The notes beneath the pieces were generated by a model, which was not told the DNA's origin, made no database searches, and worked only from the letters and a program-made list of their open reading frames with translations. Both the position numbers and the translations under genes were made by a program. This document shows positions 1-23,961 of a stretch of DNA of 39,443 nucleotides, one piece after another. The stretch comes from Bacillota bacterium (GTDB lineage Bacteria; Bacillota; SHA-98; UBA4971): NCBI GenBank assembly GCA_012842395.1, contig DUSX01000032.1, positions 1 to 39,443 on the forward strand. The letters are read 5' to 3'. Numbering within the stretch: position 1 is the stretch's first letter; every line of letters begins with the position of its first letter.

Positions 1-115
<115 letters not shown>

Positions 116-21054: not shown

Positions 21055-22461
21055 ATGGGCGAAACGAAACCTGATCGCTACGACGTCATAATCGTGGGCG
21101 CGGGCCCGGCGGGCATCTTCTCCGCGCTCGAGCTCGTGGAGGCGACAAGCGGCCGGATCAAGATTATCATCACCGAGAAGGGCTCAGACCTGGATGCCAG
21201 GGTCTGTCCCTCCAACGAGGGCAAGACCGCGTGTCGTCGGTGTCGGCCGTGCAGTATCGTGTCGGGGTGGGGCGGTGCCGGCGCGTTCAGCGACGGGAAA
21301 CTCACCCTGTCAACGAAGGTCGGGGGAATGCTCGACGTATACGTGAGCGATCAGAAGCTCAAGGAGCTCATCGAATACGTGGACGGAATCTACCTCGGGT
21401 TCGGGGCCCCCACCAAGGTTTACGGGGGCGACGAGGAGGCGCTTCACGAGCTCGAGCGGAAAGCCCTCATGGCGGAGCTGAAGTTCATTCCCGCGAAGAT
21501 CAGGCACCTGGGCACGGGCAAGACCAAGGATATACTGGACGGCATGAAGAAGCACCTCGCCCGATATGCCGAGATAGCGCTTCGCGAGAGCGCAACTAGG
21601 ATCTTGGCGCAAGACGGCAAGGTTGTCGGGGTTGAGACGTCCAAGGGCCGCACCATCTTAGGGGACTACGTCATCGTGGCCCCTGGGAGGGACGGTGCCG
21701 AGTGGCTCGTCCAGGAGGCGCGCAGGCTTGGGCTCTCAATGGCCATCAATCCTGTGGACATCGGCGTGCGTGTGGAGCTGCCGGCCGTGGTGGCGGAGCC
21801 TCTCACGAACGTGGCGTACGAGTCAAAGCTCATCTATCACTCGCGTTCCTTTGACGATAAGGTGCGCACCTTCTGCATGTGTCCTTACGGCGAGGTTGTC
21901 ACCGAGAGCTCGGACGGGCTGATCACGGTCAATGGTCACACTCATTTTGAGAAGAAGACGGAGAACACCAATTTCGCGCTTCTTGTGAGCAAGACCTTCA
22001 CCGAGCCGTTCAAGGACCCCATAGCGTACGGCAAATACGTGGCTGGTCTCGCAAACCTCCTCGGCGGAGGGGTGATCGTCCAGAGGCTGGGCGACCTGAT
22101 CACGGGCCGCCGGTCTACCAAGGAGAGGCTCTCCAAGGGCACGGTCGTGCCCACGCTGGAGGACGCCACTCCGGGCGACCTGAGCTTGGTGTTTCCATAC
22201 AGGCATCTCGTAAGCATCATAGAAATGCTCAAGGCGCTCGACGCTGTGGCGCCGGGCGTCTATGGGCGCAACACCCTGCTGTACGGGGTCGAGGTCAAGT
22301 TCTATTCGTCCCGCCTGTCGGTGACCAGCTCCCTCGAGACGCAGGTGAAGAACCTCTTCGCTATCGGCGACGGCGCCGGCATCACAAGGGGGCTCATGCA
22401 GGCGTCCGCTTCAGGCGTCGTGGCGGCCCGGGAGATCCTTAGCCGGCTCGGAAAGCGCTGA
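21055..22461 (+). CDS. FAD-dependent dehydrogenase (COG2509-like NAD(P)/FAD oxidoreductase)
   Basis: A 468-residue flavoprotein. The N-terminal Rossmann motif IIVGAGPAGIFSALEL (12-27) binds FAD. A conserved cysteine group C51, C60, C63, C66 (CPSNEGKTACRRCRPC) comes before GWGGAGAFSDGKL, a segment typical of this family. The C-terminal FAD-contact motif is NLFAIGDGAGITRGLMQA (at about 433-450). Substrate and partner of this family are not known to me. The four cysteines could hold an Fe-S cluster or zinc, or serve in redox chemistry. The start has GGAGAGG 11 bases upstream. It is a single gene between two non-coding stretches. Confidence 0.85.
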   Translation: MGETKPDRYDVIIVGAGPAGIFSALELVEATSGRIKIIITEKGSDLDARVCPSNEGKTACRRCRPCSIVSGWGGAGAFSDGKLTLSTKVGGMLDVYVSDQKLKELIEYVDGIYLGFGAPTKVYGGDEEALHELERKALMAELKFIPAKIRHLGTGKTKDILDGMKKHLARYAEIALRESATRILAQDGKVVGVETSKGRTILGDYVIVAPGRDGAEWLVQEARRLGLSMAINPVDIGVRVELPAVVAEPLTNVAYESKLIYHSRSFDDKVRTFCMCPYGEVVTESSDGLITVNGHTHFEKKTENTNFALLVSKTFTEPFKDPIAYGKYVAGLANLLGGGVIVQRLGDLITGRRSTKERLSKGTVVPTLEDATPGDLSLVFPYRHLVSIIEMLKALDAVAPGVYGRNTLLYGVEVKFYSSRLSVTSSLETQVKNLFAIGDGAGITRGLMQASASGVVAAREILSRLGKR

Positions 22462-22483: not shown

Positions 22484-22512
22484 TTGACGGCGGATGGCAC
22501 ATAAGCTATACT
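22484..22512 (+). promoter_or_regulatory. SigmaA promoter of the ABC exporter leader
   Basis: TTGACG (22484-22489), exactly 17 bp, TATACT (22507-22512). Expected start is near 22519. It produces a leader of nearly 390 nt before the ABC ATPase gene, containing a short ORF and an attenuator. Confidence 0.8.
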
Positions 22513-22589
22513 CAAAGTTGGCAATAGTGGGAATGCTTACGTGGGCCAGGGGGAGTATTTACAGTGAGAGGAGAAGGGAGGCTGCGCGG

Positions 22590-22712
22590 ATGATCAGCAG
22601 AGTGCCATGCATCGTCAAGGTACGGCTTGCCGGTGTTGCCGCACGCCGCGCGCTCGTCAGCGCGCGTTCTAATGGCGGTTCCGTTCGTGCGCGGCCTGAC
22701 CCTGTCCTGTAG
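22590..22712 (+). CDS. Putative 40-codon leader peptide of the ABC exporter operon
   Basis: The ATG is preceded by AGGGAGG with an eight-base spacer, the best ribosome-binding site in this leader. The peptide is Arg/Val/Ala-rich and basic (about nine Arg/Lys in 40), with no known domain. The coding stretch contains the perfect hairpin CGCGCGCT-CGTC-AGCGCGCG (about 22647-22666). Its last codons overlap the 5' arm of the predicted antiterminator (22698-22704) and its stop lies in that loop, the arrangement expected for a regulatory peptide. Translation is inferred, not shown. Confidence 0.5.
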   Translation: MISRVPCIVKVRLAGVAARRALVSARSNGGSVRARPDPVL

Positions 22713-22768
22713 CTGGTAGATAATGGCAGGGTCGTGGGCCGCACGAGTGCCCACGACCCTTTCTATTT
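22698..22768 (+). terminator. Attenuator: mutually exclusive antiterminator and terminator hairpins
   Basis: Terminator: AGGGTCGTGGGC (22728-22739) pairs with GCCCACGACCCT (22749-22760) in a perfect 12-bp stem followed by TTCTATTT. Antiterminator: GACCCTG (22698-22704) pairs with CAGGGTC (22727-22733), which is the 5' foot of the terminator stem, so only one can form. A ribosome finishing the leader ORF would cover GACCCTG and favour termination. A ribosome stalled earlier would leave it free and favour read-through into the ABC genes. Confidence 0.7.
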
Positions 22769-22905
22769 GGCGCCACGTAGGCCGTGGCGTTCGCTTCAGG
22801 AGAGTCGTGGGAGGACCCGGCTCTCCTTTTTGGTTTTCTGCTAGCGAATGGATTTCTCCACTCTGGCTTTGCAGCGCCAGGGTTTGAAGGCGAGGTTTGG
22901 AGAGG

Positions 22906-23961
22906 ATGCAGGAGCGAGAGACAGCACTTGAGTGCATCGGCGCGCGGAAGGCGTTCTATGTGAGGAAAGAGACGGCGCCCAAGACGGCCAAGACAAGACC
23001 ATCCAGCACGTGCCAGGCCGAGGCCCAGCCAACCCCGGCAACGGAGAGGCATACCGGCGGGGAGGCGGTCGTGCAACCCAACGTGGCGAGGAAAGGGCCT
23101 GGCATTCGGGCCGGGGAAGCTGGAACGGGTGAGGTCTGTGGGACCGGTCAGCCCGCGGGCGTGAACGGGAGGGAGCGGCCAAGGCTGGCAGTGCAGAGGG
23201 CGGTCGCCGCGCTCTTTCCAAGGAGCGTGAGAGTAGAGGCTGTATCGGGCGTGACGTTCAGCGTAAAGCGCGGCGAGATATTTGGCATCCTAGGGCCCAA
23301 CGGCTCGGGCAAATCCACGCTCATCAGGCTCATCTCCACGTTGCTCCTGCCTGACGAGGGCGAGATCAGGGTGTTCGGCCACGACGTGGTAAAGGAACGT
23401 TTCGCGGTGAGACGCTTGATAAACCGCGTGTCCGTGGAGGCTGCCTTCTTCAAGAAGCTGTCGGCCATGGAGAATCTCAGCTACGCCGCGCGTCTCTACG
23501 ACGTCGACATCCGCTGGGCGCGCCGAAAAGCCATCGATATCTTGACCCGCCTGGGTTTCAGCGAGAGCAAGGCGTACGAGCCGCTCGAGGACCTATCCCG
23601 CGGCATGCAGCAGAAGGTCGCCGTGGCAAGGGCGTTGCTGACGTCCCCTGTGCTTCTGCTGCTCGACGAGCCGACGACCGGGCTCGACCCGGTGTCCAAA
23701 CGCGAGGTGCAGGATTACGTCCTTGAGGTAAGGGACTCCCATGACACGACGGTCATCCTGACCACCCACGACATGCAGGAGGCTGACAGGTTGTGCGACA
23801 GGGTGGCGATCATCGACCAGGGCAGGTTCGTGGCCTTGGATACGCCCGGCCATCTCAAAGAGAGCCTCGCTACGAACGGGGAGACGGTGACTTTGGAGGA
23901 CGTGTTCTTCGCGCTTACTGGGAAAGCGCTGAAGGAGTCGCATCCCGAGGAGGCGGATTAG
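22906..23961 (+). CDS. ABC-2 type exporter ATP-binding protein with an N-terminal insert
   Basis: A 351-residue ATPase that pairs with the membrane protein encoded next. Numbered from ATG 22906: Walker A GPNGSGKST (130-138), signature LSRGMQQK (230-237), Walker B VLLLLDEPT (249-257), switch His288 (TTHDMQEADRLCDRV). The usual Q-loop Gln is not evident; the equivalent region reads NRVSVEAAFFKKLSAMENL. The odd point is a low-complexity insert of about 75 residues (about 22-97, rich in Thr, Ala, Gly, Pro and Arg) between the first beta strand and the ABC core. A TTG nine bases upstream could also serve as start. The domain set resembles drug or lipid exporters of the CcmA/NatA class; the substrate is unknown. 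The long attenuated leader suggests inducible expression. Confidence 0.92.
   Translation: MQERETALECIGARKAFYVRKETAPKTAKTRPSSTCQAEAQPTPATERHTGGEAVVQPNVARKGPGIRAGEAGTGEVCGTGQPAGVNGRERPRLAVQRAVAALFPRSVRVEAVSGVTFSVKRGEIFGILGPNGSGKSTLIRLISTLLLPDEGEIRVFGHDVVKERFAVRRLINRVSVEAAFFKKLSAMENLSYAARLYDVDIRWARRKAIDILTRLGFSESKAYEPLEDLSRGMQQKVAVARALLTSPVLLLLDEPTTGLDPVSKREVQDYVLEVRDSHDTTVILTTHDMQEADRLCDRVAIIDQGRFVALDTPGHLKESLATNGETVTLEDVFFALTGKALKESHPEEAD

Follow-up and report, generated by a model that had tools for sequence, protein, structure and literature searches.

A putative ribosome-mediated attenuator with two terminators upstream of a DrrA-like exporter in Bacillota

Layout of the leader region

The 39,443-nucleotide stretch of DNA from a Bacillota bacterium analyzed here (contig DUSX01000032.1, hereafter the window) is part of a 3.1-Mb draft genome; its relatives are recorded as uncultured Bacillota. 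A gene for an FAD-dependent protein ends at 22461 and is followed by a leader and by the ATP-binding cassette (ABC) exporter announced in an initial annotation of the locus, a DrrA-like ATPase and then an ABC-2 type permease. As judged from its sequence, the leader is probably a five-segment ribosome-mediated transcription attenuator sensing macrolide-like inhibitors. The basis for this assignment is its anatomy, conservation, and covariation, the coding signature of a short open reading frame (ORF), and the enrichment of a peptide motif; from these we infer stalling, the identity of the drug, readthrough, and the exported compound. The following features were assigned, where T1 and T2 are the two terminators, and 0:1, for example, is the helix formed by segments 0 and 1.

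22484-22512, + strand: promoter of the sigma-70/sigma-A type, TTGACG-17-TATACT, 10 of 12 consensus matches
22574-22581, + strand: Shine-Dalgarno (SD) sequence AAGGGAGG of the leader ORF, kept in the 14 family leaders
22576-22587, + strand: segment 0, the SD with the bases next to it downstream, partner of segment 1 (0:1; duplex −20.7 kcal/mol; cross-locus permutation with 52 leaders)
22590-22712, + strand: leader ORF MISRVPCIVKVRLAGVAARRALVSARSNGGSVRARPDPVL, 40 codons, ATG to TAG (codon-position analysis with eight homologues)
22617-22625, + strand: codons 10-12, Lys-Val-Arg (KVR), candidate stall site of the macrolide type (+X+; spacing-specific enrichment of [RK]x[RK])
22689-22706, + strand: segment 1, the final ORF codons, partner of segment 0 or segment 2
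22725-22742, + strand: segment 2, 3' half of the antiterminator including the T1 5' arm (15 pairs in 1:2)
22729-22768, + strand: terminator T1, stem 22729-22739/22749-22759, T-tract TTTCTATTT (hairpin −24.3 kcal/mol)
22749-22759, + strand: segment 3, the T1 3' arm, with 22750-22757 able to form a helix with 22804-22811 on the T2 5' side (anti-T2, 3:4; duplex −15.9 kcal/mol)
22769-22791, + strand: spacer hairpin GGCGCCACG/CGTGGCGTT between T1 and T2
22798-22838, + strand: terminator T2, stem 22798-22807/22818-22827 with T-rich tail, segments 4 and 5
22906-23961, + strand: ABC exporter ATPase, DrrA-like, 351 amino acids
23963-24811, + strand: ABC-2 type permease, DrrB-like, 282 amino acids

The sigma-A promoter, the 40-codon ORF, and its strong ribosome-binding site described in the initial annotation were all present. 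Promoter sites of this grade are expected by chance approximately 0.2 times in the 1-kb region (both strands), and comparable boxes were also found upstream of the related leaders inspected. The five segments form a chain of mutually exclusive helices, consisting of an anti-antiterminator (0:1), the antiterminator (1:2), T1 (2:3), an anti-T2 helix (3:4), and T2 (4:5). In 0:1, the SD region pairs with the last ORF codons (22576-22587 with 22689-22702). The antiterminator comprises an inner (22698-22706/22725-22733) and an outer helix (22691-22696/22737-22742) and competes with T1 for the common segment 22729-22739; the half-sites annotated initially (22698-22704/22727-22733) were exact, and the helix extends beyond them. 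The annotated 12-bp terminator with a T-run corresponds to T1, which has 11 pairs and one A-T pair at its base followed by TTTCTATTT, and a terminated RNA of the proposed length of about 250 nucleotides is predicted from the likely start near 22519 to T1. The element is larger than initially described, with T2, the 0:1 pairing of the SD, and the relay pairing 3:4 as additional parts. In isolation, folding energies of −28.6 kcal/mol for the antiterminator hairpin and −19.9 kcal/mol for T2 were calculated, next to those listed above for T1, 0:1, and 3:4, and the folding energy of the leader RNA lay 3.6 standard deviations below that of dinucleotide shuffles. The leader has the anatomy of a ribosome-mediated attenuator, namely an SD-bearing short ORF, a mutually exclusive antiterminator and terminator, and an anti-antiterminator overlapping the ORF.

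The apical loop of the antiterminator (22710-22724), just past the stop codon, contains a CTGGTARAT-like sequence that is kept in both genera though unpaired (the same loop occurs in leaders L014-L019); a pause site, a loop contact, or the stop context are possible reasons.

Conservation within the class and in other phyla

The leader was found in six of six genomes of the genus and in six of seven sister-genus genomes, and a third genus from the class had it twice. Each of these 14 leaders from three genera precedes an orthologous ATPase gene, and genome G009 is without transporter and without leader. A search with an RNA model built from the 14 leaders gave one strong copy per genome, including the window's own; two strong copies were present in the class only in G013, the genome with two transporter copies. 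A weak match (E = 0.165) was located immediately upstream of the ATPase gene in a more distant genome. The leaders L038 and L041 of G013 belong to one exporter copy each; in the second copy, the T1 arm and the T2 side are altered, with compensating changes in two pairs. In Rfam 15 (T-box, riboswitch, or known leader), the only matches at the gathering score were the window's 5S rRNA and, across 16 related loci, a single tRNA; E values up to 5 gave nothing meaningful.

Covariation was evaluated in the 14-leader alignment. For the antiterminator, where the initial annotation had named it as a check, 94.3% of the alignment cells were paired, and three pairs were double-changed in 13 cells, a cell count reached in 0 of 500 shuffles. 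Paired cells amounted to 95.5% for T1 and 100% for T2 (two pairs double-changed); taken jointly, the terminators had 97.5% paired cells and three double-changed pairs in 11 cells (0 of 500 shuffles). With 89.6% paired cells and two double-changed pairs in four cells (6 of 500 shuffles), the covariation support for 3:4 was weaker than that for 1:2, T1, and T2. In a control with partners slid by one to three columns, paired cells fell to 26-58%. The bases GTGGG inside T2, mostly in its loop, were identical in 13 of the 14 leaders, and in the 14th (L041) two relay pairs are preserved by double changes; pairing of these bases with the T1 3' arm would explain their conservation. The spacer hairpin is kept within the genus with a sequence that differs between species, and would bring segments 3 and 4 together.

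Across the ORF homologues, the start (ATG or GTG), the SD, and the stop (TAG, TAA, or TGA) are maintained, and insertions and deletions are multiples of three. Among eight homologues, 254, 253, and 422 differences were counted at codon positions 1, 2, and 3, respectively. In the true frame 207 of 593 changed codons were synonymous (386 nonsynonymous), whereas the two shifted frames, each with 494 changed codons, gave 71 and 49 synonymous ones (423 and 445 nonsynonymous). The last eight codons, which double as segment 1, were excluded from this count. These values indicate that the leader ORF, 18-57 codons long in the family, evolves as coding sequence.

A search of 84,980 species retrieved 80 ATPase relatives from other Bacillota, Chloroflexota, Bipolaricaulota, and others, with an identity of 60-70% in many cases. 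Their upstream regions showed the same plan with unrelated sequences, most having two terminators of equal arm sequence. The SD region and the ORF end read AGGCCGTACC and GGTACGGCCT in L040, AGGTCGTTGAA and TTCAACGACCT in L102, GGTGAGTGGG and CCCACTCACC in L072, and AGGCGCAAT and ATTGCGCCT in L111 and L114. No candidate leader was found at several Gemmatimonadota, Bipolaricaulota, and Chloroflexota loci among the relatives. Among SD-bearing ORFs, 28 of 81 near the exporter (34.6%) reached an SD/ORF-end complementarity score of at least 20, versus 13 of 675 at other positions of the exporter loci (1.9%), a count that includes near-identical genomes. Own pairings were further compared with cross-clade pairings in 52 leaders, whose ORFs were picked by SD strength, and by hand at a few family loci. 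The excess of own over cross-locus pairing gave combined p values of approximately 3e-9 for 0:1 (33 clades), 5e-8 for 1:2 (33 clades), and 7e-8 for 3:4 (23 clades), with 11 of 33, 11 of 33, and 7 of 23 clades, respectively, at rank 0.05 or better.

The peptides of the Chloroflexota-type loci L060, L061, L066, L110, L111, L112, and L114 share a strongly conserved C-terminal PCRIAP, which extends into segment 1.

Ribosome position and the sensed signal

From this anatomy the following switch is proposed. In the absence of a ribosome on the ORF, 0:1 would pair, leaving segment 2 free for T1, and with its 3' arm (segment 3) consumed in T1, T2 would form as well (off). A ribosome that reaches the stop codon unhindered would sit on segment 1 and block the antiterminator, so that T1 and T2 would form (off). 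A ribosome arrested on the start codon or shortly past it would cover segment 0 and leave segment 1 free; 1:2 would form, and T1 would be blocked (on). The freed T1 3' arm could then pair with the T2 5' side (3:4) and weaken T2, allowing transcription of the exporter, which presumably removes the sensed inhibitor. Alternatively, a ribosome stalled at the Lys/Arg-X-Arg site may be trailed by another on the SD that covers segment 0.

Folding with an imposed ribosome footprint (approximately 16 nucleotides on each side; the modeled start was shifted by one base, which is immaterial at this resolution) agreed with this scheme for the window RNA before T1 is made. The probability of the antiterminator was 0.86-1.00 with the ribosome at codons 1-3, 0.05 without ribosome (0.90 for 0:1), and 0.00 with the ribosome at the stop codon, where 0:1 was not formed either. 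In seven related leaders (L045, L038, L072, L071, L040, L102, and L111) switching was predicted even at equilibrium, with T1 at 0-0.3 when the ribosome sits on the start codon or on codon 3 and above 0.9 at the stop; for L045 the values were 0.89 without ribosome, 0.00 at codons 1 and 3, and 0.99 at the stop. The initial proposal that ribosome position decides the fold is supported by the competing, covarying helices and by this dependence of pre-T1 folding on ribosome position. Of the single-terminator attenuator proposed with it, the competition of T1 with the antiterminator stands; the leader has two terminators, and when untranslated it would be off through 0:1.

Several results weigh against the proposed switch. 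With T1 complete, the window RNA folded into T1 at equilibrium in every state, so the switch would have to be kinetic here, with the antiterminator persisting, and six other leaders (L055, L060, L067, L069, L076, and L086) showed no equilibrium switching. The model also permits 0:1 around a ribosome at codons 6-20, which spans the KVR site at codons 10-12; a stall there would therefore require steric exclusion or a queued ribosome. For the relay, 3:4 overlaps just the inner four T2 pairs, and in most sister-genus leaders it has six uninterrupted pairs. The cross-locus null for this helix is high, 38% of the pairings scoring 20 or more. Single loci say little in this test, since GCCGTGGGC is frequent in both terminators whatever the phylum.

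The peptides point to a macrolide-like ribosome inhibitor as the most likely signal. In 28 nonredundant leader peptides, hand-chosen after the leaders were seen though not on the +X+ motif, Arg/Lys-X-Arg/Lys occurred 32 times versus 16.2 ± 3.5 in residue shuffles and was present in 24 peptides versus 12.3 expected. Other Arg/Lys spacings were not in excess (adjacent, 15 versus 16.9; two apart, 7 versus 15.6; three apart, 9 versus 15.0). The +X+ motif is known to cause arrest with ketolides and, less strictly, macrolides (PMC8298421), and the mef(E) leader peptide MTASMRLR contains R-x-R (PMC4335068). The window peptide carries the motif at codons 10-12, approximately 30 nucleotides from the start codon, where a second ribosome could sit on the start and cover segment 0; in other leaders, with the motif at codons 2-5, segment 0 would be covered by the stalled ribosome itself. 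The initial suggestion of a stall on an Arg/Val-rich leader is corrected in its wording, from composition to the +X+ motif, and its inducer, a translation-inhibiting compound, gains support from the spacing-specific excess, although induction itself is deduced.

Less probable, though a serious competitor, is a leader that responds to early-acting translation inhibitors in general (lincosamides, pleuromutilins, or initiation inhibitors arresting the ribosome on the start codon), with an incidental +X+ motif. The vmlR leader works in this way (PMC9226507), and modeled switching is best for a ribosome at codons 1-3; the spacing-specific +X+ enrichment is left unexplained. Arginine is the commonest leader-peptide residue (13.7%), as would be expected if the leader sensed low charged Arg-tRNA in the manner of trp and his leaders. 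However, Arg runs are missing, adjacent Arg/Lys pairs occur at chance level whereas X-spaced pairs are doubled, and the gene encodes an exporter rather than an arginine function; arginine-starvation sensing was disfavored on this residue spacing and is improbable. Similarly hard to credit is a switch set by an arrest near the conserved RPDP/RPxxD of the C terminus, either intrinsic or dependent on the exported compound as its ligand: Arg-Pro near the C terminus is kept in many Bacillota leaders, but ribosomes at this place would mask segment 1 and favor termination, and the RP codons (CGRCCY) are already required by RNA pairing, so that no peptide-level reason is needed. Most improbable is that T1 and T2 are ordinary terminators of the upstream operon, whose transcripts they would also stop beyond the gene end at 22461, with ORF and antiterminator arising by chance, in view of the leader's own promoter, the coding signature, the compensatory changes in competing helices, and the recurrence of the layout before the same exporter in other phyla.

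Arg-Pro shortly before the stop codon (22692-22703 in the window) recurs in L040, L039, L067, L102, L072, and L122 from distant Bacillota, and is probably incidental to the RNA pairing (CGRCCY), though the peptide may have a role of its own.

Known attenuators and the exporter

Drug class and target of the proposed attenuator would resemble those of mef(E), and its three-helix logic appears to match that of vmlR and of the bmrB model. The mef(E) pump is of the major facilitator superfamily type, unlike the ABC exporter here. The mef(E)/mel leader shares macrolide-induced attenuation of an efflux operon, as proposed for the present leader, and an R-x-R peptide; it differs in its RNA, in the single Rho-independent terminator described, and in its location on streptococcal mobile elements (PMC4335068). 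In the vmlR leader of Bacillus subtilis, as in the window, a small upstream ORF lies within an anti-antiterminator and is followed by an antiterminator and an intrinsic terminator; a stalled ribosome switches the system on, and the same rearrangement opens a second downstream barrier, as predicted here from the sequence (PMC9226507). The vmlR ORF is a tripeptide ORF, whereas the present ones have 18-57 codons and an SD pairing with their own last codons; a hairpin that sequesters an SD (SL-4) serves as its second barrier instead of a second terminator, and the gene controlled encodes an ABC-F protein, not an exporter. The bmrB leader of BmrCD in B. subtilis, cited initially as precedent for a stalling-controlled exporter, is induced by ribosome inhibitors, and its model shares the three-helix logic; its only terminator lies inside the bmrB coding region, and the role of an anti-antiterminator was left open (PMC4191407). 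ErmDL has Arg/Lys-X-Arg/Lys as its drug-dependent arrest site, for which the window peptide has a candidate, and is the leader of an erm methyltransferase, not of an exporter (PMC8298421).

A survey from 2010 noted ABC leaders as a loose group and reported a tandem terminator in some rimP leaders (PMC2965389). The open-access literature searched yielded no account of this exporter leader or of a two-terminator relay, and a dedicated search of it gave no paper on tandem terminators in attenuators. The second-terminator relay and the cross-phylum distribution appear new, while the kind of mechanism is known from VmlR, mef(E), and BmrB. The leaders may well represent an undescribed attenuator class of Bacillota and Chloroflexota, mostly from uncultured genomes, in which the SD pairs with the last codons of its own ORF, two terminators with repeated arms relay one antitermination event, and a widespread DrrA-like exporter is controlled in response to macrolide-like drugs. 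If so, antibiotic-sensing attenuation would reach well past mobile resistance genes and the handful of model Firmicutes, into lineages where regulation of this type is little known, the relay would make two terminators act as one tight switch, and the exporter would be a natural one for ribosome inhibitors. Whether termination in such bacteria depends on ribosome position could be tested cleanly with this leader.

The exporter is related to DrrAB without being classed as a member: the ATPase scored 248.8 bits versus a cut-off of 312.45 for TIGR01188, and the permease 44 versus 223.05 for TIGR01247. No plasmid copy of the ATPase was found at E = 1e-70. Residues ~18-108 of the ATPase (22955-23230), between the first strand and Walker A, form a long, low-complexity, poorly conserved insertion, which varies in length within the genus and is far shorter in the sister genus. 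At the start of the window (1-115) lies a 5S rRNA gene with its 5' end cut off.
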